Position numbers and translations under genes: made by a program. Shown here one piece after another: positions 3,307 through 54,601 of a stretch of 64,000 nucleotides of DNA (positions within the stretch are counted from its first letter, which is position 1; every line of letters starts with the position of its first letter). This DNA is from a virus, in the IMG/VR virus record IMGVR_UViG_3300032173_000002, positions 36,373 through 100,372 of that record; one strand, given 5' to 3'. The notes under the pieces are model-generated. The model was given only the letters and a program-made list of their open reading frames with translations, had not been told where the DNA came from and did no database searches.

Positions 3307-3386
3307 ATAGCAATGCAAGAAAGGTCATCGAGTTGTGAGGGCGGTTCGAGATTGATATTGATCGGAATTTGAGGGATATAAGTTGA
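3303..3386 (+). pseudogene. Relic tag gene with internal stop
   Basis: From ATG 3303 the frame reads MNSNARKVIEL, then TGA at 3336-3338, then 15 more sense codons to a TGA at 3384-3386. The first part is the same N-terminal tag as in the neighbours (compare SASEVIRLW at 9652, where the codon aligning with this stop is TGG). The distal TGA overlaps the TTG start of the ATP-grasp gene. The simplest reading is a short tagged gene broken by a TGG to TGA change, or a tag-only remnant. An 11-aa peptide could still be made. Confidence 0.45.
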
Positions 3387-4699
3387 TTCATGCAAGGGAT
3401 TTTCTTGAGGATCGAATAGTAAGGGAGCAGAGCTATACCACAGGAGTGGATTTATCCAAGAAGACTGTTTTGGTTTATGATTTTGGTCTTTTCTCTGGAA
3501 TAGCGGAGCGCCTCGGTAGAAGCTTCGGAAAGGTCTATTACCATGTTCCGTGGGAGGACGCCTATCCCAGGGCTGGAAAGGCCCTCGTTGGGCGAGGTCT
3601 TCCTGGAGTGGAGAAGGCTTTGGAGTTTTGGCCTTTGGTGGACAAAGTGGACCTGATTTTCTTCCCGGATACTCATTGCTCAGCACTGGCAAGACACCTG
3701 AAGGATCTAGGTTATCCTGTTGCTGCTGCCTTGGAGGCGGAGAGTTTGGAACTGGACAGGGCTTTCGGTAGGCAAGTTCAGAAAGAGATGGGTTTGGACT
3801 ACCAAAAGACAGATCGAGTAATTGGTGTCTCCAACTTGCTAAAGTATCTTGCAGACTATCCAGATGGTGGAAAGTATGTGAAGATTGATATATTCCGGGG
3901 AGAAGTGGAAACATTTCAGCACATTGACTTACCTACCAGCAAAGGGATTTTGGATGTGTTTACCGCAGATATGGGACCCGCAGCAGAGACCATTCCCTTT
4001 TTAGTGGAGGAGAAGGTATCTGGTGTGGAAGGGGGTCTAGATACCATCGTTTGGGATGGGGAGACTCTTTCTCCTACTTGGTTTAGCTACCTTGATGAAA
4101 ATGCCTATATTGCTAAGACGATGGATTTCAAAGAAGTTCCTGACCCGTTTCGGAAAGTTCACGAAGGGTTAGCTCCGGTATTCCGTAAATGGGGCACTAA
4201 GTTTTTCTTCTCCACTGAGATTATTTATGGAAAGAGTCATAGTAAGGCATATCTGATAGATTATACTCTGCGGAACGCAAATCCCTGTATCTCTACTTTA
4301 CAAGCGGAGGTGATCAAGAACTTCCCGGAGCTGATTTGGGCTATGGGTACTGGGGAGAGAGTGGATCCCTGGATCGAGGCTCCATATTGTGGTAGTGTGA
4401 TACTCAACTCTCGGTGGTTCATAAATAACTGGGGACATGTGAAGGTGGATCCCTCTGTGAAGCCTTTTGTTACTTTTCGCTTTCACTATCGGGATAAGGA
4501 CGGAGAGCCGTATCGGTTGCCTGGCTACTCCTCGATGGTGGCTTTTGCTTTGGCTTGGGGGGACTCGGTAGAAGAGGTGATTGCCCTTCTGGAGGAAAGG
4601 CAAGCAAAGGTGAGCTTCCCTTGTCAGGAGAAGTCTTTTCCCAGGGACGAGATAATGAAGGGTTTAGCTGCTTTTGAGAAGGAAGGTATCGAATTCTAA
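3383..4699 (+). CDS. ATP-grasp ligase, PurD/GarS-like, with N-terminal tag
   Basis: The protein is about 438 aa from a TTG start, with GAGGG seven bases upstream. Residues 1 to about 12 (MIHARDFLEDRI) match the recurrent tag. The rest resembles phage phosphoribosylamine-glycine-ligase-like ATP-grasp proteins: a Rossmann-like N-terminal half, then an ATP-grasp half with ESLELDRAFGRQVQKEMGL, EEKVSGVEGG (grasp loop) and a metal-binding DYTLRNANP segment. Such enzymes join an amine to a carboxylate with ATP. The substrate is unknown. A tag on a complete enzyme argues that the tag is an addressing element rather than part of one fold. Confidence 0.75.
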   Translation: MIHARDFLEDRIVREQSYTTGVDLSKKTVLVYDFGLFSGIAERLGRSFGKVYYHVPWEDAYPRAGKALVGRGLPGVEKALEFWPLVDKVDLIFFPDTHCSALARHLKDLGYPVAAALEAESLELDRAFGRQVQKEMGLDYQKTDRVIGVSNLLKYLADYPDGGKYVKIDIFRGEVETFQHIDLPTSKGILDVFTADMGPAAETIPFLVEEKVSGVEGGLDTIVWDGETLSPTWFSYLDENAYIAKTMDFKEVPDPFRKVHEGLAPVFRKWGTKFFFSTEIIYGKSHSKAYLIDYTLRNANPCISTLQAEVIKNFPELIWAMGTGERVDPWIEAPYCGSVILNSRWFINNWGHVKVDPSVKPFVTFRFHYRDKDGEPYRLPGYSSMVAFALAWGDSVEEVIALLEERQAKVSFPCQEKSFPRDEIMKGLAAFEKEGIEF

Positions 4700-5410: not shown

Positions 5411-5812
5411 ATGAATAGGGCCCGACAGTTTCTCGAATATAACAGTCAAGGCTGGATTGGCGTGGACTTGGATGGTACTCTTGCTCATTACGATTCTGGA
5501 TATTCTAGTCACTTCATGGTGGGCCCACCTATTCCAGCTATGCTGGCGAGAGTGAAGGATTGGCTGGCTCAAGGGAAGGATGTGAGAATCTTTACTGCTC
5601 GTGTAGCACCACCTCACTCCGAGGAGGTGATTGCAAGGCAGAGAGGAATAATTGAAGATTGGTGTTTGGAGCACCTCGGTACTGTCTTGCCTATTACAGC
5701 TACCAAGGATTACGAGATGCTGGAGTTATGGGATGATCGCTGTGTGACTGTGGAAAAGAACACAGGAAGGTGTTTGACTTTATTGCGAGGAGAAATAGAA
5801 GGACTACAATGA
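5411..5812 (+). CDS. HAD-like phosphatase with N-terminal tag
   Basis: The protein is 133 aa. The tag MNRARQFLEYNSQ leads directly into a compact HAD domain. Motif I is DLDGTL, with its first Asp at residue 18. IFTARV follows at the motif II position, and ELWDDRCVTVE gives the acidic motif. Phage HAD proteins of this size act on small phosphates or nucleotide ends; the substrate is unknown. A relic of this gene's 3' end is present at 6161-6223. Confidence 0.8.
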   Translation: MNRARQFLEYNSQGWIGVDLDGTLAHYDSGYSSHFMVGPPIPAMLARVKDWLAQGKDVRIFTARVAPPHSEEVIARQRGIIEDWCLEHLGTVLPITATKDYEMLELWDDRCVTVEKNTGRCLTLLRGEIEGLQ

Positions 5813-5843
5813 GAGAGGGTTTTGAAATTAAGGGAGGTCAAAG

Positions 5844-6137
5844 ATGAATAGGTCGCAGAAAGTTATGAAACTTCTTGAAGAAGAACAGGGCGATGCTCCG
5901 TTTTTCATTGACAAAACAAGTAAATATGGCTATAGGCTTGTCTTGAATAATAATCCATCCGGAAGGGCTTATCTCTATCTATACAATCCGGATGGAAAAC
6001 TTGGGTTGCAAGAACCCTTAGAGACTTATTTTCAATGGACACCAAACGGATGGTCTTCTGTATTTTTGGGGCTCGGCAAGTTCAAACCCTTGGAGGAGAA
6101 GGATGTCCTGAAAGTGTTCAAGAATTATGGCTTTTAA
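5844..6137 (+). CDS. Small tagged protein, 97 aa
   Basis: The tag MNRSQKVMKLLEEEQ is followed by a roughly 80-residue domain rich in aromatic and beta residues (YRLVL, RAYLYLYNPDGKLG, YFQWTPNGW). A good GGGAGG lies upstream. No family is recognised. Confidence 0.7.
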   Translation: MNRSQKVMKLLEEEQGDAPFFIDKTSKYGYRLVLNNNPSGRAYLYLYNPDGKLGLQEPLETYFQWTPNGWSSVFLGLGKFKPLEEKDVLKVFKNYGF

Positions 6138-6160
6138 TTCCATGGTAGCCATATTTGTTC

Positions 6161-6223
6161 ATGTCGGATGAAACAGGAAGGTGCTTGACTTTGCCAACTA
6201 AATCCCAGGGAGGACTAGAATGA
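6161..6223 (+). pseudogene. Relic of the HAD gene 3' end
   Basis: A 20-codon frame (MSDETGRCLTLPTKSQGGLE) closely matches the last residues of the HAD phosphatase at 5411-5812 (NTGRCLTLLRGEIEGLQ). At DNA level, AGGAAGGTGCTTGACTTT corresponds to AGGAAGGTGTTTGACTTT. The TGA overlaps the next gene's ATG (ATGA). This is evidence of past duplication and loss in the accessory block. Confidence 0.5.
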
Positions 6224-6450
6224 GCATAGCAAATAGATTTTTGGAGCAATTTATGGAGGGCTATAAGATTAGAGGTTGGATTTATGATGGAGATATTCAC
6301 TGCGAGGGTTGTGCGTATGATCGGTTTGGAGTTAGAATTTACGACGAGGAGAATCCTCCAGAGGACAGCGAAGGGAATCCTATAACTCCTTTGTTTGCAT
6401 CAGATGCAATAGGAGATGAGGTTTGTGGCGATTGTGGCTCACCGTTATAG
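6220..6450 (+). CDS. Small tagged zinc-ribbon-like protein, 76 aa
   Basis: The tag MSIANRFLEQFMEG is followed by a CEGC pair near residues 28-31 and a CGDC pair near residues 70-73, giving CxxC...CxxC spacing consistent with a zinc ribbon. The C-terminus overlaps the next gene by 35 nt. Function is unknown. Confidence 0.7.
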   Translation: MSIANRFLEQFMEGYKIRGWIYDGDIHCEGCAYDRFGVRIYDEENPPEDSEGNPITPLFASDAIGDEVCGDCGSPL

Positions 6451-7050: not shown

Positions 7051-7065
7051 GAGGGGACATCTACC

Positions 7066-7989
7066 ATGAGAGATGTACTCTATGAAGCGGAGCAGGAGGA
7101 GATTGGTCGCATAAGGGATCAGATCGCCGATCTCCAACAGCGAAAGTCAGATGCTGAGGACGAGGAGGAGAAGGCGAGGATCAATCTGGAGATAGCCCGA
7201 CTAAAGAAAGACCTGAGTGATTTGAAAGATGAGATCAAACCGGAGGAGTTCTCAGGAGGAGGTCGTTATATGAGCAGAGCAAGGTTTGTATTGCGAGAGT
7301 TTCATGCTCTGGAACAGCAAGCCATGGATGTTGAGGTACAGAAGAAGCTGGACGAGTTTATTTCTCTCTATCGTGAGATGAAGTCTCTGGAAGCAAGAAT
7401 AGAGGTCCTATCTGCTCGCAGTGATATTCTCCAGAAGGAGCTTGTTCCCATTATAAAGGAGTCTGCCGAGCAGATGGCTCTAGTGGAGAATGCGACAGTC
7501 AAATATAAGACTAGAGCAGTTACATCTCTTTCTTACAAGACTCTCTTTGAACAGGCCTTGGGTAAGGTGAATAAACAGACTCGTGCCATATTGGAGGACC
7601 TGAAAGAAAAGCTCACTTCCTCCTATGTGAAGGAGTTTCTGGATGTGAAGGCAGAGTCCTGGTTTACGGATTTGGTGGACAAATTTCGTAACTGGATTCG
7701 CTCGGTGGTGGAAAAGCTTGGTGTATTGAAGAGCGCTGTAGCTGAGTTACTTTCTGTGGCACAGCGGGAGCCTTCTGAATCGGAAGCATTTAGATATGGG
7801 GATAAGATTAGGTCTGCGGTAGACAAGGCTGTAACCCTCTTTCATAACAAGGGTAGCATTACGAAGGATGATGTGGTTTCTGTTTTGATAAAAGTCCTTG
7901 GCAGGATGGGGTGGGTGGCAGAAGATGTAGAGGAGGTAGTAGATCAGTTGAGGTCTGCTCATGGTATTAGAGTGAAGGAGAGCAGGTGA
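7066..7989 (+). CDS. Coiled-coil protein with nested tagged start at 7270
   Basis: The 307-aa frame begins with about 60 residues of charged coiled coil. At codon 69 it contains a second start, ATG 7270 (MSRARFVLREFHALE), preceded by AGGAGGAGG at good spacing. The nested product of 239 aa carries the recurrent tag. The rest is mostly helical (residues 90-230), with no recognised fold. Either two in-frame proteins are made or an upstream ORF fused to a tagged gene. Function is unknown; the position just before the head genes suggests a virion component. Confidence 0.65.
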   Translation: MRDVLYEAEQEEIGRIRDQIADLQQRKSDAEDEEEKARINLEIARLKKDLSDLKDEIKPEEFSGGGRYMSRARFVLREFHALEQQAMDVEVQKKLDEFISLYREMKSLEARIEVLSARSDILQKELVPIIKESAEQMALVENATVKYKTRAVTSLSYKTLFEQALGKVNKQTRAILEDLKEKLTSSYVKEFLDVKAESWFTDLVDKFRNWIRSVVEKLGVLKSAVAELLSVAQREPSESEAFRYGDKIRSAVDKAVTLFHNKGSITKDDVVSVLIKVLGRMGWVAEDVEEVVDQLRSAHGIRVKESR

Positions 7990-16050: not shown

Positions 16051-17013
16051 ATGGGGATGGCTCTTACATTGAGGGATATTGCGAATCGGATGCTGTCAGC
16101 CTACCGCAAAGCGGATTACTCTTTAGTGGGGGTACATAATGTGGAAGTGGATGCCTGGGTTGGGACAAAGGCAATCCTCTTTACTGCAGACGTGGATAGT
16201 AGTGAGGGTGGAACTTACGATGTAGGAGTTGAGTTTTTTCAAGTTGTATTCTCCAATGGACCGAAGCCAGGCTGGATTCCTGTAGAGTCTGAAGATGGGG
16301 TGATTTACGCAGAACCACCTTCTATGACCTATAGCAACTGTGCCTTGAAGTGTGCATGTTTTACTGGCGATACTCTGATCCCTCTTGCCGATGGGTATTC
16401 CGTTCCTATCAAAGACCTTGTGGGAAGAGAGGAGTTTTTTGTTTATTCCTATGATTTGGATAAGAAACAGATTACGATTGGAAGAGGACACTCTTGTTGT
16501 CTGACTCGTGAGAATGCTCAAGTTCTTACTGTTCCTTTGGATAACAAGACAGTTATTACCTGCACACCAGATCACCTTTTCCTTATGAAGGACGGTAGGT
16601 ATAAGAAAGCGGAAGACCTTGTTCCAGGGGACTCCTTGCTTCCTCTGTATAGAGATCTGGCTGAAAGTGGTAAAGCTTGTGGAAAGGTTGCTGGTTTCCC
16701 TCTGCCGAAAGATGAGCCTGCTGATGTATATTGTTTTACGGTGGACAAATACGAGAACTTTGCTGTTGATGTTGATCGAGGGGCTTCGCTATCCAGCGGG
16801 GTTTTCGTTCATAACTGCCCTGATTTTCGTTACCGATTTGAGAAACCGTTGTATGATGTCGGCTCGCTCATTGGGAACTGGAGGAGGTATCGCCGGAGGG
16901 TAGGTGCCACAAGAACTATGCCCCCAGTAAATCCACGCCAGATACCTGGCTACTGCAAACATGTTTATTCCTTAGTTCAGGCTTTGGTCAATTCCAGGAT
17001 GGTAAAGGGATAA
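16051..17013 (+). CDS. Virion neck-region protein interrupted by a mini-intein
   Basis: The precursor is 320 aa. N-extein: residues 1-102. Intein: 103-255. C-extein: 256-320. The spliced protein (167 aa) would carry CACPDFRYRFEKPLY and a C-terminal PGYCKH, giving a CxC...CxH zinc-type (SWIM-like) motif shared by phage structural proteins with CxCPDF. The intein sits exactly between Ala and the second Cys of the CxC pair. The extein function is inferred only from position between capsid and sheath genes. ATG 16057 is an alternative start. Confidence 0.75.
   Translation: MGMALTLRDIANRMLSAYRKADYSLVGVHNVEVDAWVGTKAILFTADVDSSEGGTYDVGVEFFQVVFSNGPKPGWIPVESEDGVIYAEPPSMTYSNCALKCACFTGDTLIPLADGYSVPIKDLVGREEFFVYSYDLDKKQITIGRGHSCCLTRENAQVLTVPLDNKTVITCTPDHLFLMKDGRYKKAEDLVPGDSLLPLYRDLAESGKACGKVAGFPLPKDEPADVYCFTVDKYENFAVDVDRGASLSSGVFVHNCPDFRYRFEKPLYDVGSLIGNWRRYRRRVGATRTMPPVNPRQIPGYCKHVYSLVQALVNSRMVKG
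16357..16815 (+). mobile_element. Mini-intein (HINT domain, no homing endonuclease), 153 aa
   Basis: The intein begins with Cys (CFTGDTLIPLADGYSVPIKD, block A) and has block B with T-x2-H (ITCTPDHLFLMKDGRY). It ends with block F (VYCFTVDKYENFAVD) and block G (GVFVHN) before Cys +1. All splicing residues (Cys 1, block B His, terminal His-Asn, Cys +1) are present. There is no room for a LAGLIDADG or HNH endonuclease, so it is probably an immobile, splicing-competent remnant. Confidence 0.88.
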
Positions 17014-45901: not shown

Positions 45902-45920
45902 GGGATATAATAGGAGAGGG
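45902..45920 (+). promoter_or_regulatory. Promoter-like element, GGGATATAAT class
   Basis: GGGATATAATAGGAGAGGG lies between helicase and queD and contains TATAAT. It matches the sites at 37882, 39720, 47083 and 55725 and would start the queD-queE transcript. Confidence 0.6.
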
Positions 45921-45933
45921 AGGGAAGTTGGAT

Positions 45934-46308
45934 ATGATATCAGTGACGAAGATTTTTAGGTTTGAGTATGCTCATCGGTTGCCTTTTTACAATGGGGAGT
46001 GTAATCGGTTGCATGGACACTCCGGTAAGTTAGAGGTGGAAGTCACGGCTGATGGTCTTGTTGGTGGTGGGCATGACCGTGGGATGGTCGTGGATTTCCG
46101 AAAGTTGAGTGAACTGGTTGAGAAGGAAGTGATCCAGCTGCTGGATCATTCCTGCTTGAACGACTATAGTTCTAATCCTACCTGTGAGATTATGTTGAGT
46201 TGGATAGTAGACCGTTTGCGAGCTCCCTTGCGAGATGCTGGACTGGCTCTGGTATCTCTTAGGATGTGGGAGACGGAAACAACATTTGCTACTTGGAGGC
46301 CCGACTAG
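45934..46308 (+). CDS. queD: 6-carboxytetrahydropterin synthase, QueD
   Basis: The protein is 124 aa. It has FEYAHRLP and the CxxxHGH motif (CNRLHGHSG), plus the late active-site ETETTFATW. QueD converts dihydroneopterin triphosphate to 6-carboxytetrahydropterin in preQ0 synthesis. ATG 45934 is preferred; a TTG at 45928 is also possible. The stop overlaps queE. Confidence 0.9.
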   Translation: MISVTKIFRFEYAHRLPFYNGECNRLHGHSGKLEVEVTADGLVGGGHDRGMVVDFRKLSELVEKEVIQLLDHSCLNDYSSNPTCEIMLSWIVDRLRAPLRDAGLALVSLRMWETETTFATWRPD

Positions 46309-47012
46309 TGAATAGAGTTAAGTTGGTAAGTATCTTTAACTCGGTTGAGGGGGAAGTGAACTATCGAGGACAGGGTACCCTTACTACATTTATTCGGTTT
46401 GCTGGGTGTATCCCTCCTTATTGTACCTATTGCGACACTCCCTGGTCGCAGGAGATGGGCTCATCCTATGCTATCGAGATGACGGTAGAGGAGGTATTGG
46501 CTAGCGTCAAGAAAATAGGTTGTCGGAGAGTCACTATTACCGGGGGGGAGCCTTTGCTTCAGATGGATGGGTTTTTGGAGCTATGTACTGAGTTATATCG
46601 TTGGAATGCGGAGATTTCTGTGGAAACAAGTGGCTTGGTGGATTTGCCTTCGAGAAGGTTAGGTGGGGTATATTGGGTCGTAGATTATAAGCTCTCTTCT
46701 TCTGGCCGCCCTGCAGAGCAGTTGAATAGGCTCGGTTTATTTGCTCGTCTTCGGTGTTGTGACTGGGTCAAGTTCGTTGTTTGTAGTGAGGGGGATTGCA
46801 ATCTGGCTTATGAGGTTGTCTGTGGGAGAGGTGGTTTGATGGAACTGGGGTGTGGGGCAAGGATGGCCTTGAGCCCAGTGTTTGGGAAATCCGGTTGGGG
46901 GCCAGCGGATGTGGTAAGCTGGATTCAGAGGAACAGGTTATGGGGGTTTTCCTTGAATCTCCAGGTACATAAGTTCATTTGGCCGGCAACGAAGCCTGGT
47001 GAGGAGCGTTAA
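46308..47012 (+). CDS. queE: 7-carboxy-7-deazaguanine synthase, QueE
   Basis: The protein is 234 aa from GTG 46308, overlapping queD. NSVEGEVNYRGQG and the radical SAM cysteines in GCIPPYCTYCDTPW, then the GGEP motif (ITGGEPLLQ). The cysteine spacing reads CX4CX2C, one residue longer than the usual CX3CX2C. It makes CDG, the second step to preQ0. Confidence 0.88.
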   Translation: MNRVKLVSIFNSVEGEVNYRGQGTLTTFIRFAGCIPPYCTYCDTPWSQEMGSSYAIEMTVEEVLASVKKIGCRRVTITGGEPLLQMDGFLELCTELYRWNAEISVETSGLVDLPSRRLGGVYWVVDYKLSSSGRPAEQLNRLGLFARLRCCDWVKFVVCSEGDCNLAYEVVCGRGGLMELGCGARMALSPVFGKSGWGPADVVSWIQRNRLWGFSLNLQVHKFIWPATKPGEER

Positions 47013-47082
47013 ATACTTGATTCTAAAAGGACAAAATTTTTGTCGGTTTTTTCCGTAAAAAGTAGTACTTAATGGCTGAAAA

Positions 47083-47105
47083 GGGATATAATAATAGTAG
47101 GAGGG
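47083..47105 (+). promoter_or_regulatory. Promoter-like element, GGGATATAAT class
   Basis: GGGATATAATAATAGTAGG is followed by a short 5' leader with a small hairpin (GAGGG...CCCTC). The leader runs to the AGGAGGAGG site of the 47152 gene. Confidence 0.65.
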
Positions 47106-47151
47106 TCTTAAAAGTCCCTCGAAACTTAACCTAATTAACAGGAGGAGGCGA

Positions 47152-47685
47152 ATGGAACGGAAAAGAGTGCTTGAAGCGGTAAAGATCCTGAATGAGAAGT
47201 TGGAGAAGAAGATCTCCTACTTTGTCAAGCAGGGGGAGCTTGAGAGGTTGTTTCTGGAGGCGATAGATGAAATGCCTGACAATGCCGCAAAGGCTCTCCC
47301 TGACGAGGTCAAGAAGGTGTATAATGACCTCATGGACGAAGCTGAAGGGGAGGTGGTTCCGATGACATCCGCGAAGTCGAATGCTAAGAAGAATGCCAAG
47401 GTCCCAAAGAAGCCCAAGACGGGGACCGAGACCAAGCGTGCCCCTGCTGCGGGTAGGGATAAGTTTGGTTTTAGGATTGGTAGTAAAGGCAACTTGTTTG
47501 TGGAGGCAGTTCTGGCGAAGCCCGGCATCACGATGGCTGAAGTCCAGCAGTTACCCTGGAATAAACGACATGCTACCTACTGGGGTTATGCCCATAAGTT
47601 GGCAGAGATGCGTTACCTCGTGAACGATGGGGGTAAGCTATCAATTTCGACCAGTCCGACCAGGGGGAAAAATGGCAAGTCGTAA
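47152..47685 (+). CDS. Basic, probably DNA-binding protein, 177 aa
   Basis: ACAGGAGGAGGCG before ATG 47152. The N-terminal 65 residues are helical; the middle is Lys-rich (AKKNAKVPKKPKTGTETKRA), and the C-terminal 75 residues (GITMAEVQQLPWNKRHATYW) look like a winged helix. It has its own promoter and terminator, so it is probably abundant; a nucleoid-type or regulatory protein is possible. Confidence 0.65.
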   Translation: MERKRVLEAVKILNEKLEKKISYFVKQGELERLFLEAIDEMPDNAAKALPDEVKKVYNDLMDEAEGEVVPMTSAKSNAKKNAKVPKKPKTGTETKRAPAAGRDKFGFRIGSKGNLFVEAVLAKPGITMAEVQQLPWNKRHATYWGYAHKLAEMRYLVNDGGKLSISTSPTRGKNGKS

Positions 47686-47712
47686 GGTCGTGAGATGACG
47701 GTAGTGTGAACG

Positions 47713-47747
47713 AATAGTTACCCCAACTCAAAGTCGGGGTAACTATT
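47713..47747 (+). terminator. Hairpin between the 47152 gene and queC
   Basis: A 12-bp perfect stem (AATAGTTACCCC at 47713-47724 with GGGGTAACTATT at 47736-47747) has an 11-nt loop and is followed by TGTTTATG. It could be a terminator or an attenuator for queC-folE-dpdA. Confidence 0.7.
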
Positions 47748-47793
47748 TGTTTATGTGCAGAGATTTTTGAGATGTTCGGATTGGGGGAAAGAA

Positions 47794-48495
47794 ATGCAAG
47801 TTGTTAGTCTTCTGAGTGGTGGACAGGATTCGACCACTTGCTTGTTTTGGTCGATTCAAAAGTTTGGGGCGACTGAGGTAGTTGCTCTTACTATTGACTA
47901 TGGACAAAGACATAACTCCGAAATTGGGGCCGCTGCTCGGATTGCGGAAATTGCTGGAGTAGAGTGGAAGTTACTTTCTTTCCCTGCACTTCAACAGATT
48001 GGGGATTCACCGTTGGTTTCTTCTAGTGGCAGTATTGTTGGTACTCATCGTGGTCGTTCGGATTTGCCTGCCTCTTTTGTTCCTGGTCGAAACTATTTAT
48101 TTTTGGGTCTTGCCGCTGCTTTGGCTTACAAAGTTGGTGCGGATAGTGTAGTTGGTGGCATGTGTCAGACGGATTATTCCGGGTATCCGGATTGTCGGGA
48201 AGTAGCGATTCGTCATATCGAGCAAGCTATTTCGACCTCTATGGATTTTCCTTTGAAGATTTATACTCCTTTGATGTATCTAACTAAGGCAGATTCCGTT
48301 CGTATGGCGCAGGGGTTGGCTGATTGTATGGATGCGTTGGCTTATTCTCAAACTTGTTACGAGGGGAAATACCCACCATGTGAAGTTTGTCCAGCTTGTA
48401 GACTTCGTGCGAAAGGATTTATGGAAGCGGGCATTCCGGACCCGTTGATTGTCCGTTCAAGGATGGATTTGAGAAAGGGGGGATGGCATGTCTGA
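47794..48495 (+). CDS. queC: 7-cyano-7-deazaguanine synthase, QueC
   Basis: The protein is about 233 aa from ATG 47794 (MQVVSLLSGGQDSTTCL). The PP-loop SGGQDST binds ATP. The C-terminal Cys motif (CEVCPACRLR) plus an upstream Cys bind zinc. It converts CDG to preQ0. The stop overlaps folE by 8 nt. Confidence 0.92.
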   Translation: MQVVSLLSGGQDSTTCLFWSIQKFGATEVVALTIDYGQRHNSEIGAAARIAEIAGVEWKLLSFPALQQIGDSPLVSSSGSIVGTHRGRSDLPASFVPGRNYLFLGLAAALAYKVGADSVVGGMCQTDYSGYPDCREVAIRHIEQAISTSMDFPLKIYTPLMYLTKADSVRMAQGLADCMDALAYSQTCYEGKYPPCEVCPACRLRAKGFMEAGIPDPLIVRSRMDLRKGGWHV

Positions 48496-49099
48496 TAGAA
48501 TACCTGATAGAATAGATAGAATAGAGGAGAACCTTCGTGAGATTATTAGGTTTATAGGGGACGATCCAGATAGGGCCGGTTTGCTAGATACACCTAAGAG
48601 GATGATCCGGTCTTGGGAACATCTTTTCTCTGGATATAATGAAGACCCTGTGGCTTGTATTAAGTCCTTCGATTTCGATAGATATGATGAGATGGTGTTG
48701 CTCCGTGATTGCGAGTTGTATTCGGTTTGCGAGCATCATTTTCTACCCTTCTGGGGGAAGGCCCATGTGGCTTATATTCCGTCGAAAGGTGGAGGTGTTG
48801 TGGGTGTGTCGAAGCTAGCTCGACTTGTAGAGGTGTTTTCCCGTCGGTTGCAGTTACAAGAACGCATTTGTGAGCAAGTAGCATCTTGCTTAATGGACAA
48901 TCTGAAATGTGTTGGGGCAGCTTGTATTATCGAGGCTACTCACCTTTGTATGAGGATGAGGGGTGTGGAGAAACAGAACTCGATAGTCGTTACTTCCTCT
49001 TTGAAGGGAGCATTTCTGGTTAAGAATTCACAAGGTATTGCCGCGAGGCAGGAGTTGTTGACACTAGTTTTTGGGGGTCGTTCGAGGGGAGGTTATTAG
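48488..49099 (+). CDS. folE: GTP cyclohydrolase I, FolE
   Basis: The protein is 203 aa. Zinc and active-site motifs: CEHHFLPFWGKAHVAYIP and VGVSKLARLVEVFSRRLQLQ, then ATHLCMRMRGVEKQ. It produces dihydroneopterin triphosphate, the entry point to preQ0. Overlaps queC at its 5' end. Confidence 0.93.
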   Translation: MSDRIPDRIDRIEENLREIIRFIGDDPDRAGLLDTPKRMIRSWEHLFSGYNEDPVACIKSFDFDRYDEMVLLRDCELYSVCEHHFLPFWGKAHVAYIPSKGGGVVGVSKLARLVEVFSRRLQLQERICEQVASCLMDNLKCVGAACIIEATHLCMRMRGVEKQNSIVVTSSLKGAFLVKNSQGIAARQELLTLVFGGRSRGGY

Positions 49100-49103
49100 T
49101 GAG

Positions 49104-49982
49104 ATGAATAGGTTACTTATTGACTTGTCCAATTTACCATCGGGTAGTACTTATGAGGATCGGTACGGTGGGTATATGAGTATTTTCAGGTCTGTTTTCG
49201 AGTCAGTTGTTCGTGGTCAGGATGTTGTAGTGGTGAACCCACCGTTTTGTTGGATTCCGTTGATTTGGTGGTTAGGTGGTGAAACGGAGGGTGGTCAGAT
49301 TTTTTTCGAGCATGACTTCGTGGTTCGTCAGCTTGTTAATAGTAAGACTATTGATAGACAGAGGATTTTGTCAGATCGAACTTTGTTGGAGGCGATTACT
49401 TGTTTACGGCCTGAGCTTGTTGATACCTTGTGGAAGTCAGATATGGAGTGGGTCGTCGATCCAACTATACTTGATGCCCTTCGTTATCAATCTATCCGCT
49501 CAGAGTTCGTTATTACAAATAATGGCTCTTATCATAGGTCTGAAGTGTTAGCTTACTTGAAGAAGTTGTGGGCGTTTAAGTCTACCTTCCAGAAGTGCAT
49601 ATTAGTTCCGTGCGCAGCTGATAAGCCATATCCGTCTCGTTTACATAGGGCTATTCTAGATTTTCTGCCCGACGACTATCATCTTATTGTTGCCACTGGC
49701 GTTCTTGGCCTCGTTCCTCAAGAGCTGTGGGCTGTTATGCCCCATTACGATAGTGGGTTGCCGAACGAGTGGCGGCTTATGTCTATCGTATCGGATTATT
49801 TTCGTAGGCACACTTATAGTAAAGTTGTTGTTTACTGCGATTACTACAATGAAGCTATTGAGAGAGGTCTGATGGGCATTAGTGGGCTTGAGCGTGTGTT
49901 CGTCAACCCTGTTAAGTTTTACTATAATTACATTGATCTTTTGGACAGTCGTCGTTTAGGTCGACTTAAGGAGGTTTTGTAG
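49104..49982 (+). CDS. ArcS-like 7-deazaguanine-converting protein
   Basis: The protein is about 292 aa from ATG 49104. Residues 169-182 read PCAADKPYPSRLHR, close to the ArcS signature PC-x3-KPY-x(1-2)-S-x2-H; GVLGLVPQELWAVMPHYDSG follows, as in ArcS/TgtA2 core domains. Archaeal ArcS converts preQ0 to archaeosine on tRNA. Here, between folE and dpdA, it probably converts preQ0 (or the DNA-borne base) to another derivative. The product is not predictable from sequence. First ~150 residues are unassigned. Confidence 0.72.
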   Translation: MNRLLIDLSNLPSGSTYEDRYGGYMSIFRSVFESVVRGQDVVVVNPPFCWIPLIWWLGGETEGGQIFFEHDFVVRQLVNSKTIDRQRILSDRTLLEAITCLRPELVDTLWKSDMEWVVDPTILDALRYQSIRSEFVITNNGSYHRSEVLAYLKKLWAFKSTFQKCILVPCAADKPYPSRLHRAILDFLPDDYHLIVATGVLGLVPQELWAVMPHYDSGLPNEWRLMSIVSDYFRRHTYSKVVVYCDYYNEAIERGLMGISGLERVFVNPVKFYYNYIDLLDSRRLGRLKEVL

Positions 49983-49986
49983 GTAG

Positions 49987-50976
49987 ATGAAGCAGCCAAT
50001 GAGGCGGCCGGAGAGGCGGGCATCTCTTTTCTTAGATTCAGGGGCTTATTCTTCTTGGACGAGGGGAGTTACCATAGATTTGCAGGGTTACATTGACTAT
50101 GTAAAGAGGCATGTCGATTTCCTCGATGTTTATGCTTGCTTGGATGTAGTTGGGAATCCTGAGGCAACTTATCAAAATCAGCTTGAGATGGAACGACAGG
50201 GTTTGCGGCCTTTGATTGTTTTTCATAAGGGGGAGGACTATAAGTGGCTTGAGTTGTATGTCAGTCGTTATGACTACATTGGCATTGGTGGTGTTGCCGC
50301 CCCAAGGTTGACTGGTACTAAGTCTTTTGAGGAAGTGCAGTCTCATTTGGATCGTTGTTTTGAGATTATTTGTGATCGGCCTGGTCATATACCTCGCTGT
50401 AAAGTGCACGGTTTTGGGGTGGGTACCCCGGTGTTAATTCTTCGTTATCCGTGGTACTCGATTGATACTACTTCTTGGCTTATGACTAGCAGGTATGGGT
50501 CTGTATATGTTCCCGTGTTTCGGAATGGCAAGTTTAGATATGACCTCGTGCCCTGGAAGATCATTGTTTCTAGTCGGTCCCCTCATCTTAAGGAAGAAGG
50601 TAAACACTTTGATACTTTAACAAAAATGGAGCAGGAAGTAGTTCTTAGGTATTTCCACTTGAAGGGGTTTAAGTTAGGCAGGTCTTCGTTCAGAAAGGAA
50701 ACTCCTGATTACAAGTTGAAACCTGGGGAGAGATGGTTCGGACAGGAGGAAGCTGATAGTCAAAGATCTATCCATGGTTTGCGGGATGGGTATGTTGATA
50801 GAGGTTGGAAGAAAGAATCTATAGTTGAGATAGTTGAGGAGCCTGGCCTTTGTAACGACTATCGAATGAGAGATGAGTTGAATATCATTTACTATCTCGA
50901 TTTGGAGAGAAGTATTCCGGAATGGCCCTGGCCGTTTAAGCCCCTAAGAGGTAGTCAAGGATTTGGTTTGTTGTAG
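49987..50976 (+). CDS. dpdA: DpdA-type DNA 7-deazaguanine transglycosylase
   Basis: The protein is 329 aa. The TGT-like core begins LFLDSGAYSSWTRGVTIDLQ and includes CLDVVGNPE, KVHGFGVGTP and DTTSWLMTSRYG. DpdA proteins exchange guanine in DNA for preQ0 or a relative and are known to protect phage DNA from restriction. It lies in the same operon as queC, folE and the ArcS-like gene. Confidence 0.85.
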   Translation: MKQPMRRPERRASLFLDSGAYSSWTRGVTIDLQGYIDYVKRHVDFLDVYACLDVVGNPEATYQNQLEMERQGLRPLIVFHKGEDYKWLELYVSRYDYIGIGGVAAPRLTGTKSFEEVQSHLDRCFEIICDRPGHIPRCKVHGFGVGTPVLILRYPWYSIDTTSWLMTSRYGSVYVPVFRNGKFRYDLVPWKIIVSSRSPHLKEEGKHFDTLTKMEQEVVLRYFHLKGFKLGRSSFRKETPDYKLKPGERWFGQEEADSQRSIHGLRDGYVDRGWKKESIVEIVEEPGLCNDYRMRDELNIIYYLDLERSIPEWPWPFKPLRGSQGFGLL

Positions 50977-50991
50977 ATAGGAGGGATGACA

Positions 50992-52041
50992 ATGAGGGTA
51001 AAAACAGAAGATCTCCGAAGGGCGCTGTTGGCCGTAAAGCCAGGGTTAGCCAAGAGGGAAATCGTTGAGCAAACGACCTACTTTATCTTTACAGGAGAGA
51101 GAGTTGTTACTTACAATGATAGGGTCTGCATTAGCTACCCCTTCAGTACAGACTTTCGATGTTCCGTTGTTGCGAAGGAGCTTTTTGATGTTTTGTCTGA
51201 TATTGAAGAAGAGTTTCTTGTAATGGAGTTTCGGGATAAGATGTTAAGGTTTTCTGCAAGAAAAGCCCGGTTTGGACTGCAAGCTTTGGAAGAGAACGCT
51301 CTTGAGCCTGCTATCGAACAGTTGGCAGTTTGGGATAAATCTAGGATCTGGAGGCGGTTGCCCAAGGATTTTACTCAAGGGTTGTTTCTTTGCCTTTTTT
51401 CTACCTCTACGGATATGACCCACAAGTATTTGACTTGTCTTTATATCTGCTCTGATCGTGTTTTTTCTTCTGATAATATTCGGATTAGTAGATATGAGTT
51501 CGTGGGTCGAGTTCGGTCGTCTTTCCTTCTGCCCCTGTCATCTGCTCGGGATTTAGTTAAGTACGATGTACGATTTATATCTCTGGACGATGCTTGGGTT
51601 CACTTCAAGACTGCTGACGAAGCTGTATTTAGCTCCCGTCTTTATCTTTCGGATGTTCCATTCCCTGAGGAGGTGATGACTTCGCACTTGGTAGTCCAGG
51701 GCTTGACTTTTATTCTCCCCGAAAAGTTGGGTCGGGTAGTCCAAGAGATGTTGGTTGCTGTGGAAGGTAAGGAAGAGATAGAGAAGGAGATTCAGGTAGC
51801 CGTAAGTAAGGGTGTTATTACCTGTCGGGGAGAATTTGTTCAGGGGAAGGGGTGGTTGGAAAAAGATGTTGACTTTCCAGAGTATAAGGGGGGAGATATC
51901 TCGTTTTCTATTCAGCCTGTCTTTTTTTCTCAAATATTGACAAAAACAACTACTATGACTTTGGCTGACGACCGGGCTCTATTCGAGTCAGGGCCGTTTA
52001 AGCATGTAATGCTTCTACATTCAAAGGTGCAGGGGATTTAG
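50992..52041 (+). CDS. DNA polymerase sliding clamp (DnaN-like)
   Basis: The protein is about 349 aa. ATG 50992 has AGGAGGG at proper distance; ATG 50986 is too close. MRVKTEDLRRALLAVKPGLA and three repeated alpha/beta modules, with FILPEKLGRVVQEM and a C-terminal FESGPFKHVMLLH, agree with the beta-clamp fold. Followed 4 nt later by the polymerase gene. Confidence 0.75.
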   Translation: MRVKTEDLRRALLAVKPGLAKREIVEQTTYFIFTGERVVTYNDRVCISYPFSTDFRCSVVAKELFDVLSDIEEEFLVMEFRDKMLRFSARKARFGLQALEENALEPAIEQLAVWDKSRIWRRLPKDFTQGLFLCLFSTSTDMTHKYLTCLYICSDRVFSSDNIRISRYEFVGRVRSSFLLPLSSARDLVKYDVRFISLDDAWVHFKTADEAVFSSRLYLSDVPFPEEVMTSHLVVQGLTFILPEKLGRVVQEMLVAVEGKEEIEKEIQVAVSKGVITCRGEFVQGKGWLEKDVDFPEYKGGDISFSIQPVFFSQILTKTTTMTLADDRALFESGPFKHVMLLHSKVQGI

Positions 52042-52045
52042 TTAG

Positions 52046-54601
52046 ATGTTGAAGGGTTTTTTCTTTAAGAGCGAACAAGTAAGGGATTCAATAGTAAAAG
52101 GGGACCCTTGCGAGGTCTGTGGGTTGTATCGAGGATGCAAGTCCCCTCGGATGCCTTATTCAGGGCAGGGGAGGTTGGGGGTTCTAATTGTTGCTGAGGC
52201 TCCTGGGAAGGAGGAGGACGATCAGAATACCCAGCTTGTGGGGGAGGTGGGGCAAGCTTTTCGGGGTTGGTTGAAGGAGTTCGGTTTGGATTTGGACAGG
52301 GACTTCTACAAGACGAATGCGGTCGCTTGTCGTCCGCCCGGCAATCGCACACCGACTCGTAGAGAGGTTAAGTGTTGCCGGTTCCAAGTGGAAAGGGTAA
52401 TTAGGGAGCTTAGGCCCAGATTTATTTGGGTAATGGGGGGCGTTGCTACAGAATCGTTTTTCATGGATCATTGGACTGATAATTTGTCCATATCTCGTTG
52501 GCGGGGTAGGTGTATTCCAGATAGACGATACAAGGCTTGGCTGATTCCTATGTTCCATCCCTCGTTTGTGGTTCGGAAGGGAGATGAGAGAGCAAGGGCT
52601 TTCTTTTTGAGAGACTTGCAGTGGGCTTTGGGTTGTTTAGAGAGAGAACCCCCCGTGTTTTTCGACCCGGAAGAGTATGTTCAAATTTTGTATAGAACTG
52701 AGGAAGTGGCCGGGTGGATAGATAAGGCGCTGGTGAGGAAAGAGCCTATTGTTATAGACTATGAGACTTCCTGTATTTCCCCTTACAAGAAGGATGGTGA
52801 AATACTTACTGTCGCATTATCTCAAGGCGGGGAGACTATTGCGTTCCCCCTTGATTGGCCAGGTGTGTGGGGAAGGAGTGATTTAGAGGTTGTTGAAGCC
52901 AAGTTAAGGGAATTGTTTGTTTCTCCCTTGGGGAAGGTTGCTCATAACATTAAGTTTGAGGAGGGGTGGACTCGAAGGCGATTTGGTTCGGGGGTCGAGA
53001 ACTGGCTTTGGGATACGATGCTGGCTGAGCATGTTCTTGATTGTCGTCAAGAGGTCACGGGGCTAAAGTTTCAGGCCTATGTTCGATGGGGAGTATCGAG
53101 TTATGATAGCGATGTAAAGCCTTACTTGTCCAGGGAGGATGAGTTCGAGTACAATAGGCTCCGGGAAGCGGATTGGCGGAAGGTCTGTTTGTATTGTGGA
53201 TGTGATGCATTCTTAGAGCATAAGTTGTGGTTGGAGCAGGTTTCTCAGATGCGGGGAAGGCTGAGTAGAGCTTACCGTCTTCTCCATGATGGAGTTCTGG
53301 CCTTCGTTGATGCTGAGCAGGAAGGTATTTGTGTAGATGAGAAGTATTTTGTGAGAGAGCACGAGAGGCTTTCCAAAATGATAGAGGAGACCGAAGCAAA
53401 TTTGCTGGGGGGCGATGAAGCTGCAGCGTTTCGGGAAGCTACCGGGAAGCAGATTAACCTTCAATCTCCATCAGATCTTCGGTGTCTATTCTTTGAAATC
53501 CTTGGTATCAAGCCTTTGAAGGTTACAGCGAAGGGAAATAACTCAGTGGATCGAGATATTTTGGAGCGTCTGGATGTTCCATTCGCTAAGAAGTTAGTCT
53601 CCCTTCGCAAGTTGTTGAAGATCAGAGACACTTATATTGCGCAGATAGTTAGGGAAGTTGTTAATGGGAAAATACACCCCAGTTTTAACCTTCATATTGC
53701 AAGATCTTATCGTTCTTCCTGTGATCGTCCTAACTTTCAGAATATACCTGTGCGGGATGAGGAGTCTAAGAGGTCAATTCGTACCGGGATCGTTCCCTCC
53801 TCTGGCTGGCGGCTAATGGATGTTGATTATTCCTCACTGGAGGTGAGGATCGCTGCTTGTTTGAGCAGAGATCCAGAGCTTGAAAAATACATTTACGACC
53901 CGGCAACTGATCTCCACAGGGATCAGGCAATGGAGTTATTTTTGCTTAGGAAGAGACAGGTAAATGAGACCCTTCGTTTCTACGCAAAGAATATGTATGT
54001 TTTTGCAGAGATTTACGGGAGTTACTGGGGATCAATTGTCCAAAGTTTGTGGCCCCTAACTCTGGAGTTGAATGTTGGCGAGTTGACTCTCCGAGATCAT
54101 TTGCGGAGGAAAGGGATTAGGAGCTCCTCTGATTTCGAGGAGCATGTGAGATCAGTTGAGAGTAGATTCTGGGAGCGTTTTGCCGTTCTCCGGGAATGGC
54201 AGATGAGTATGATGGACAAGTACATGAAGAAGGGTTATGTTGAGATGCCTACTGGTTTTCGGAGAGGCGAGTTTTTAGATCGGAATCAAGTTTTTAATTC
54301 TCCCATTCAGGGAGCCGCTTTTCATTGCTTGCTCTGGTCGTTTATCGAATTGAATAGGATTAGACGGAAAGAGGGATGGAGGACAAAACTGATAGGTCAG
54401 ATACATGATAGCATTATTTTTGATCTATGTCCTGAAGAGCAGGATTATGTGTTGAGCATTACAAATTGGGTAATGACAGAGAGAATTCGTGAAGCCTTCG
54501 GTTGGGTCTCAGTTCCTCTGAAGATCGAAGCAAAGGTGTCGGAAATTGATGGAAACTGGTGTGATATGAGATCTGTAGATGTAGGGGGAGTTAATGACTG
54601 A
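52046..54601 (+). CDS. Family A DNA polymerase fused to a uracil-DNA-glycosylase-like domain
   Basis: The protein is 851 aa. Residues 1 to about 200: UDG-like, with AEAPGKEEDDQNTQLVGEVG, NAVACRPPGNRTPTR and MFHPSFVV, as in SPO1-type phage polymerases. Residues 225-420: 3'-5' exonuclease with IDYET, AHNIKFEE and YCGCDA. Polymerase: motif A DVDYSSLEVRIAA, motif B RFYAKNMYVFAEIYG, motif C GQIHDSIIFD. Cys residues near 22-30 may hold zinc or Fe-S. It is the replicative polymerase. Confidence 0.92.
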   Translation: MLKGFFFKSEQVRDSIVKGDPCEVCGLYRGCKSPRMPYSGQGRLGVLIVAEAPGKEEDDQNTQLVGEVGQAFRGWLKEFGLDLDRDFYKTNAVACRPPGNRTPTRREVKCCRFQVERVIRELRPRFIWVMGGVATESFFMDHWTDNLSISRWRGRCIPDRRYKAWLIPMFHPSFVVRKGDERARAFFLRDLQWALGCLEREPPVFFDPEEYVQILYRTEEVAGWIDKALVRKEPIVIDYETSCISPYKKDGEILTVALSQGGETIAFPLDWPGVWGRSDLEVVEAKLRELFVSPLGKVAHNIKFEEGWTRRRFGSGVENWLWDTMLAEHVLDCRQEVTGLKFQAYVRWGVSSYDSDVKPYLSREDEFEYNRLREADWRKVCLYCGCDAFLEHKLWLEQVSQMRGRLSRAYRLLHDGVLAFVDAEQEGICVDEKYFVREHERLSKMIEETEANLLGGDEAAAFREATGKQINLQSPSDLRCLFFEILGIKPLKVTAKGNNSVDRDILERLDVPFAKKLVSLRKLLKIRDTYIAQIVREVVNGKIHPSFNLHIARSYRSSCDRPNFQNIPVRDEESKRSIRTGIVPSSGWRLMDVDYSSLEVRIAACLSRDPELEKYIYDPATDLHRDQAMELFLLRKRQVNETLRFYAKNMYVFAEIYGSYWGSIVQSLWPLTLELNVGELTLRDHLRRKGIRSSSDFEEHVRSVESRFWERFAVLREWQMSMMDKYMKKGYVEMPTGFRRGEFLDRNQVFNSPIQGAAFHCLLWSFIELNRIRRKEGWRTKLIGQIHDSIIFDLCPEEQDYVLSITNWVMTERIREAFGWVSVPLKIEAKVSEIDGNWCDMRSVDVGGVND

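Follow-up and report, generated by a model that had tools for sequence, protein, structure and literature searches.

We found that a gene cassette in a 64,000-nucleotide stretch of viral DNA (the window; bases 36373-100372 of the linear IMG/VR virus record IMGVR_UViG_3300032173_000002, which is 100,372 bases long) is, as read from its sequence, a 7-deazaguanine-type phage DNA-modification module that includes a gene for a relative of the archaeal enzyme ArcS. The absences reported below apply to the sequenced part of this record. FolE, QueD, QueE and QueC, all of established enzyme families, would convert guanosine triphosphate (GTP) to 7-cyano-7-deazaguanine (preQ0), and DpdA, of another established family, would replace guanines of the phage DNA with preQ0. 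The ArcS-like protein would attack the nitrile of preQ0, probably through the conserved cysteine of its PC motif, and addition of an amine would yield an amidine, as suggested by its homology to ArcS and its preserved core motif. By analogy with archaeal ArcS, the amine donor may be lysine, and since no gene is present for RaSEA, the enzyme that frees archaeosine (G+) from such an adduct, the adduct would be left as the final DNA base, where it may shield the DNA from host nucleases. Our preferred interpretation, held tentatively and at a little less than an even chance, is that the DNA carries an uncleaved amine adduct of preQ0, probably with lysine. With slightly less assurance still, we extend it to the viral relatives: a trimmed, RaSEA-free viral ArcS clade may leave an amino acid on the DNA base, namely lysine joined via an amidine or, where an aminomutase is also encoded, possibly beta-lysine or an elaborated chain. 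We know of no report of a DNA base with a lysine-amidine 7-deazaguanine. If the interpretation is true, a two-step tRNA pathway has been cut short to give a new DNA base, and an amino-acid-bearing purine analogue joins the known phage DNA bases.

The cassette is a + strand run at 45928-50976, followed by clamp and polymerase genes. The features are as follows, with the family matches and their E-values in brackets.

45928..46308, + strand: queD, 6-carboxytetrahydropterin synthase (PF01242 2.7e-28; TIGR03367 QueD 3.8e-23)
46317..47012, + strand: queE, 7-carboxy-7-deazaguanine synthase, radical SAM (TIGR03963 4.4e-38; phrog_2076 7.3e-27)
47152..47685, + strand: open reading frame (ORF) of 177 aa, no convincing family match, homologue in the nearest relative (L012)
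47755..48495, + strand: queC, preQ0 synthase (PF06508 2.6e-62), alternative ATG start at 47794
48488..49099, + strand: folE, GTP cyclohydrolase I (PF01227 1.2e-64; TIGR00063 above cut-off)
49104..49982, + strand: ArcS-like gene, ArcS core with DUF5591 domain (PF17884 3.4e-10; NF040592, NCBIfam ArcS, 1.2e-14)
49987..50976, + strand: dpdA, putative DNA guanine transglycosylase inserting 7-deazaguanine (phrog_887 3.5e-43)
50986..52041, + strand: sliding-clamp-like gene, homologues in L012 and L014, in the place of the annotated DNA polymerase beta subunit of phage GottfriedDienst
52046..54601, + strand: uracil-DNA glycosylase fused to family A DNA polymerase (PF03167 3.4e-22; PF00476 2e-55)

A first-pass annotation had described a complete preQ0 pathway with DpdA and, between folE and dpdA, an ArcS-type gene. 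All six genes are indeed present and co-directional at that place, and the DUF5591 and NCBIfam ArcS matches bear out the ArcS-type assignment; the start given for the feature, 45902, is to be corrected to 45928 or 45934, the first base of queD. The family E-values of all six are far beyond chance, and the preQ0 pathway is complete. Cys, HGH, Asp-His and Glu residues are present in the QueD translation, and queE probably begins with GTG at 46317, downstream of the queD stop. All motifs that make up the refined canonical signature (SGGxDS, YxQxHxxE, VPxRN, YPDC and the zinc cysteines; PMC13329287) are found in QueC, so that preQ0, the nitrile base, is its expected product. The window DpdA, for which 192 phage records were matched, is ~41% identical to annotated DpdA proteins of E. 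coli and Pseudomonas phages and conserves the LDSG, H-G and YSxD-type motifs. Given the full pathway together with DpdA, preQ0-containing DNA is the expected platform. The folE, ArcS-like and dpdA genes are tightly packed, with the ArcS-like ATG 4 bases past the folE stop and dpdA 4 bases past the ArcS-like stop, and a purine-rich ribosome-binding-type site precedes each of the latter two starts. No match to QueF (PF14489) was found in the whole 100-kb record, and QueC (246 aa) has PF06508 as its sole domain above cut-off, with no glutamine-amidotransferase (GAT) fusion. The earlier statement that neither is visible thus holds within the record, as does the view that gene content alone does not give the final base. 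QueF candidates in other viral records were rejected, all matches being below cut-off and, where checked, lying within folE.

The ArcS-like protein contains the motif PC-AAD-KPY-P-S-RL-H, whereas PC-x3-KPY-x2-S-x2-H was present in all 43 archaeal DUF5591 sequences; KPY and the His are separated by five residues in every one of the latter and by four in the viral clade, in agreement with the earlier remark that the motif is one residue short. Counted from the ATG at 49104, the PC cysteine of the window protein is Cys170 and the motif His is His181. The DUF5591 domain (PF17884) scored 40.4 bits against a cut-off of 26, and the protein fell far under the NCBIfam ArcS equivalog cut-off (53.9 vs 440 bits). 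When the viral proteins were compared with 19 archaeal ArcS sequences using hhalign, 269 columns were aligned with 99.3% probability (E 2.4e-20), corresponding to ArcS columns 135-470, which indicates that the homology spans the ArcS core beyond the DUF5591 domain alone. This core of ~270 columns includes the PC-x3-KPY..H motif and a VPxxL..P..YD block. In contrast to archaeal ArcS, the viral protein alignment has no N-terminal third and no CxCxxC zinc loop, and it stops short of the PUA-bearing C-terminal tail; the zinc loop and PUA domain are absent in all 13 viral proteins, and no PUA match was seen in the window protein. Loss of PUA would fit a DNA rather than a tRNA substrate. Archaeal stand-alone DUF5591 proteins (~230 aa) aligned to the viral profile more weakly than ArcS did. 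Such a stand-alone protein, mostly with the motif FVPCAxxKPYxxSPSH, occurs alongside full-length ArcS in many of 41 archaeal genomes (L064, L066-L078).

Structure prediction was consistent with this assignment. The AlphaFold model of the ArcS-like protein had a mean predicted local distance difference test score (pLDDT) of 84 and a predicted template modelling score (pTM) of 0.62, and the sole PDB match below 0.001 found by Foldseek was AF0587 (2q07, E 3e-5), an archaeal DUF5591 structure. In a related Archaeoglobus genome, the close homologue of AF0587 is an ArcS reading frame of 529 aa, and it was via a fragment of AF0587 that the archaeal ArcS sequences were reached. The best viral structure matches were the GR11A-type and nt-1 DUF5591 proteins.

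Two cultured Vibrio phages, vB_VcorM_GR7B and GR11A, encode relatives of the ArcS-like protein (44-48% identity over the full length; annotated as 'hypothetical protein'), and further relatives lie at eleven IMG/VR loci. The eleven loci came from a search with a three-sequence alignment, and a broader alignment returned the same eleven; a scan of viral contigs with the single protein gave none, and an initial scan of genome contigs revealed no cellular relative of the viral clade. The 13 distinct viral proteins all have an N-terminal YEDxY motif, PCA-x-DKPYP-x3-H and a V-x-G-x2-P...P-x-YD-x-G block. Of the residues that are invariant in archaeal ArcS, PC, KPY, the motif His, VP and YD are among those kept in all or nearly all of the 13. 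A phylogeny, proposed in the first-pass annotation as a means of placing the protein, was built for the domain; it set the viral proteins apart from archaeal ArcS as a single clade (support 0.96), and the placement of nt-1 was not resolved. QueC-family genes adjoin the ArcS-like gene or lie near it in nearly all viral loci, and 7 of 15 records contain the DpdA family. Judged by these alignments and the tree, the ArcS-like protein is a compact sub-family of ArcS relatives with its own viral clade.

In archaea, ArcS couples lysine to preQ0, also when preQ0 is in nucleoside form, and G+ formation requires RaSEA, which cleaves the adduct (PMC11298593). TIGR01210, which we take to be the RaSEA (radical SAM) family, an identification supported by its co-occurrence with ArcS, scored above cut-off in 36 of the 43 archaeal genomes, including 35 of the 37 with full-length ArcS, often as a close neighbour; among 14 control genomes it did so only in three ArcS-bearing archaea. 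None of the 15 viral records with an ArcS-like gene (the window record and 14 others) gave a TIGR01210 match; most of these are fragments, and three (GR7B, GR11A and nt-1) are complete genomes. Since RaSEA is missing from the window record and from every related viral record, a preQ0-lysine-type adduct becomes a concrete prediction. The first-pass interpretation of a 7-deazaguanine-modified genome with a possibly unusual final base is thus upheld in part: the gene set, the ArcS-related protein and its motif stand, and the unusual base is sharpened to this predicted adduct.

The gene neighbourhoods of other phages suggest a connection with lysine. In GR7B and GR11A the ArcS-like gene adjoins queC, after which come another QueC-like gene, two unknown genes, one of ATP-grasp appearance and then lysine 2,3-aminomutase; an uncultured phage (L021) has a similar set, with the aminomutase in the ArcS-like run. 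The runs, with a divergent second QueC, occupy L004:8001-16556 and L005:7956-16473 in the Vibrio phages, where GNAT is also present, and L021:9848-16353. Unlike the window, GR7B and GR11A have no phrog_887 DpdA, and phrog_7068 revealed no inserter in the viral records without phrog_887. The ATP-grasp label is a reading of the sequence, with a marginal PDB match to a PurD-type enzyme; an ATP-grasp-looking ORF in the window (3383-4699) was compared with the GR7B protein and rejected as its counterpart, no relation being seen. In the aminomutase, both Asp residues compared with 2a5h are conserved, and these presumably bind the lysine side chain. It is likely that the gene run in GR7B, GR11A and L021 is a further 7-deazaguanine hypermodification pathway. 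Nine Pseudomonas putida phages (~200 kb) carry a related aminomutase, which in phage vB_PpuM-Aura (L025:3734-10098, L026:7408-9787), the one of the nine examined, is accompanied by an ATP-grasp-like gene and QueC-like genes; the region read of this cluster showed no ArcS-like gene. These data suggest, without proving it, that lysine chemistry on 7-deazaguanines recurs among phages.

Several observations weigh against an uncleaved lysine adduct. ArcS of T. kodakarensis alone is inactive without RaSEA (PMC11298593), so that a RaSEA-free enzyme must have become independent, and ArcS of M. jannaschii was reported to form G+ directly from ammonia, Gln or Asn (summarised in PMC11298593). The lysine donor cannot be checked by sequence, as donor-binding residues of ArcS were not found in the literature searched; the window phage has no aminomutase; and the motif Ser is not invariant within the viral clade. 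Furthermore, the DNA of Vibrio phage nt-1, the only ArcS-bearing phage with analysed DNA that we found in the literature, contains mostly the preQ0 deoxynucleoside (dPreQ0), with traces of those of G+ (dG+) and 7-amido-7-deazaguanine (dADG) (PMC6884629), although the nt-1 motif is degenerate.

The main rival explanation, which we consider less likely, is that the ArcS-like protein is a direct amidotransferase that adds ammonia (from ammonium, Gln or Asn) to preQ0 in DNA, giving dG+ as in phage 9g with a different enzyme. Such an activity would have a precedent in the M. jannaschii enzyme, would agree with the presence of some dG+ in nt-1 DNA, and would account for the loss of RaSEA across the viral clade without a hanging intermediate. 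Phage 9g shares with the window the preQ0 base pathway and the type of DpdA, but it makes G+ via a GAT domain on QueC (PMC6884629), a domain that the window QueC does not have. Three other archaeal ArcS enzymes take lysine only (PMC11298593), and the retention of RaSEA in 35 of the 37 ArcS-bearing archaeal genomes likewise argues against direct amidation, while the lysine 2,3-aminomutase found in the viral ArcS-like gene run of two separate lineages points to lysine.

A second alternative, that the ArcS-like protein has an accessory role or little activity and the DNA carries essentially dPreQ0, appears improbable to us. It draws on the Seuratvirus-type cassettes of the E. coli phage GottfriedDienst and of CAjan, which we take to belong to the same genus. 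The window DpdA resembles theirs (~41% identity), the order folE, dpdA, clamp and polymerase is common to the window and GottfriedDienst, and the window cassette apart from the ArcS-like gene equals a dPreQ0 cassette; the window differs in having that gene inserted between folE and dpdA, in having no preQ0 transporter gene in the cassette, and in belonging to a myovirus. CAjan DNA carries dPreQ0 (PMC6884629), as nt-1 DNA mostly does, and the trimmed architecture of the viral protein and its low score on the ArcS equivalog model would also be compatible with a weak enzyme. However, the PC-x3-KPY and His core and many other columns are kept in 13 divergent proteins (identity near 40% for some), a pattern that speaks for selection on a catalytic activity. 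The nt-1 protein, moreover, is different. Phage nt-1 has preQ0 genes, DpdA2 and ArcS (Hutinet et al. 2019, PMC6884629), and its preQ0 genes and DUF5591 protein stand in one cluster as in the window, but phrog_887 was not found there, and its ArcS (L023:8416-9096; 226 aa) has no matching N-terminal part, reads LC-TTT-RPY for PC-x3-KPY, has no motif His and falls outside the viral clade of the window protein. Because it is without the motif Pro, Lys and His, it is a poor guide to phage ArcS, and the little dG+ formed in nt-1 may not be typical of phage ArcS in general.

A further reading, in which a different radical SAM protein or a host enzyme releases G+ from the lysine adduct once it has formed, is very improbable. 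The sole radical SAM gene in the record besides queE encodes a B12-binding type (171-1493) with a weak TIGR01210 match (E 0.0014, 13 bits). It fits B12/radical SAM families far better (HpnJ 3.5e-52), lies ~45 kb from the cassette near a glycosyltransferase gene, and has no counterpart seen in the nearest relative, L012 (a 50 kb fragment only); with TIGR01210 above cut-off solely in the ArcS-bearing archaea of the control set, we judged it an unlikely RaSEA substitute. Least probable of all is that the cassette boosts host tRNA queuosine precursors, a role proposed for phages with preQ0 genes on account of the shared intermediate preQ0 (PMC6884629), as DpdA belongs to the same run, PUA is missing from the ArcS-like protein, QueF is not encoded, and the module runs on into clamp and polymerase genes.

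Phage ArcS beside preQ0 genes was already known from nt-1, the test case in the study of Hutinet et al. (2019), which left the function of phage ArcS homologues open (PMC6884629). We found no description of a motif-complete, compact, RaSEA-free viral ArcS clade with this DpdA type in the literature searched, which excluded Cui et al. 2023 on newer phage 7-deazaguanines. The motif-complete clade supplies a precise mass to seek, and GR7B and GR11A are two cultured phages for testing. The calculated [M+H]+ of the predicted adduct, dPreQ0-Lys, is 438.210, compared with 292.104 for dPreQ0, 309.131 for dG+ and 310.115 for dADG.

The record is that of a contractile-tail phage (myovirus), with a Gp23-type capsid protein, prohead protease, tail sheath and gp25 wedge, together with bacterial-type replication genes for RecA, a delta-prime/DnaX-like clamp loader and family A polymerase. 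No nucleotide relative was found among GenBank phages for the stretch tried. A homologue of the 177-aa ORF occupies the same place in L012 (7695-8294; phmmer 4e-12), where the preQ0 cassette is interrupted by two HNH homing-endonuclease-like ORFs (5667-6266 and 7051-7635). The radical SAM motif of the window QueE is C-x4-C-x2-C, one residue longer than the C-x3-C-x2-C of L012. In the polymerase gene (52046-54601), the uracil-DNA glycosylase domain is fused N-terminally to the family A polymerase. An intein/HINT domain occurs in a 320-aa protein encoded at 16051-17013, among head and tail genes. Upstream of the structural genes, the HpnJ-like B12-binding radical SAM gene (171-1493) stands near a glycosyltransferase-like gene (1931-2854), a pair that could possibly modify a virion part or a glycan.

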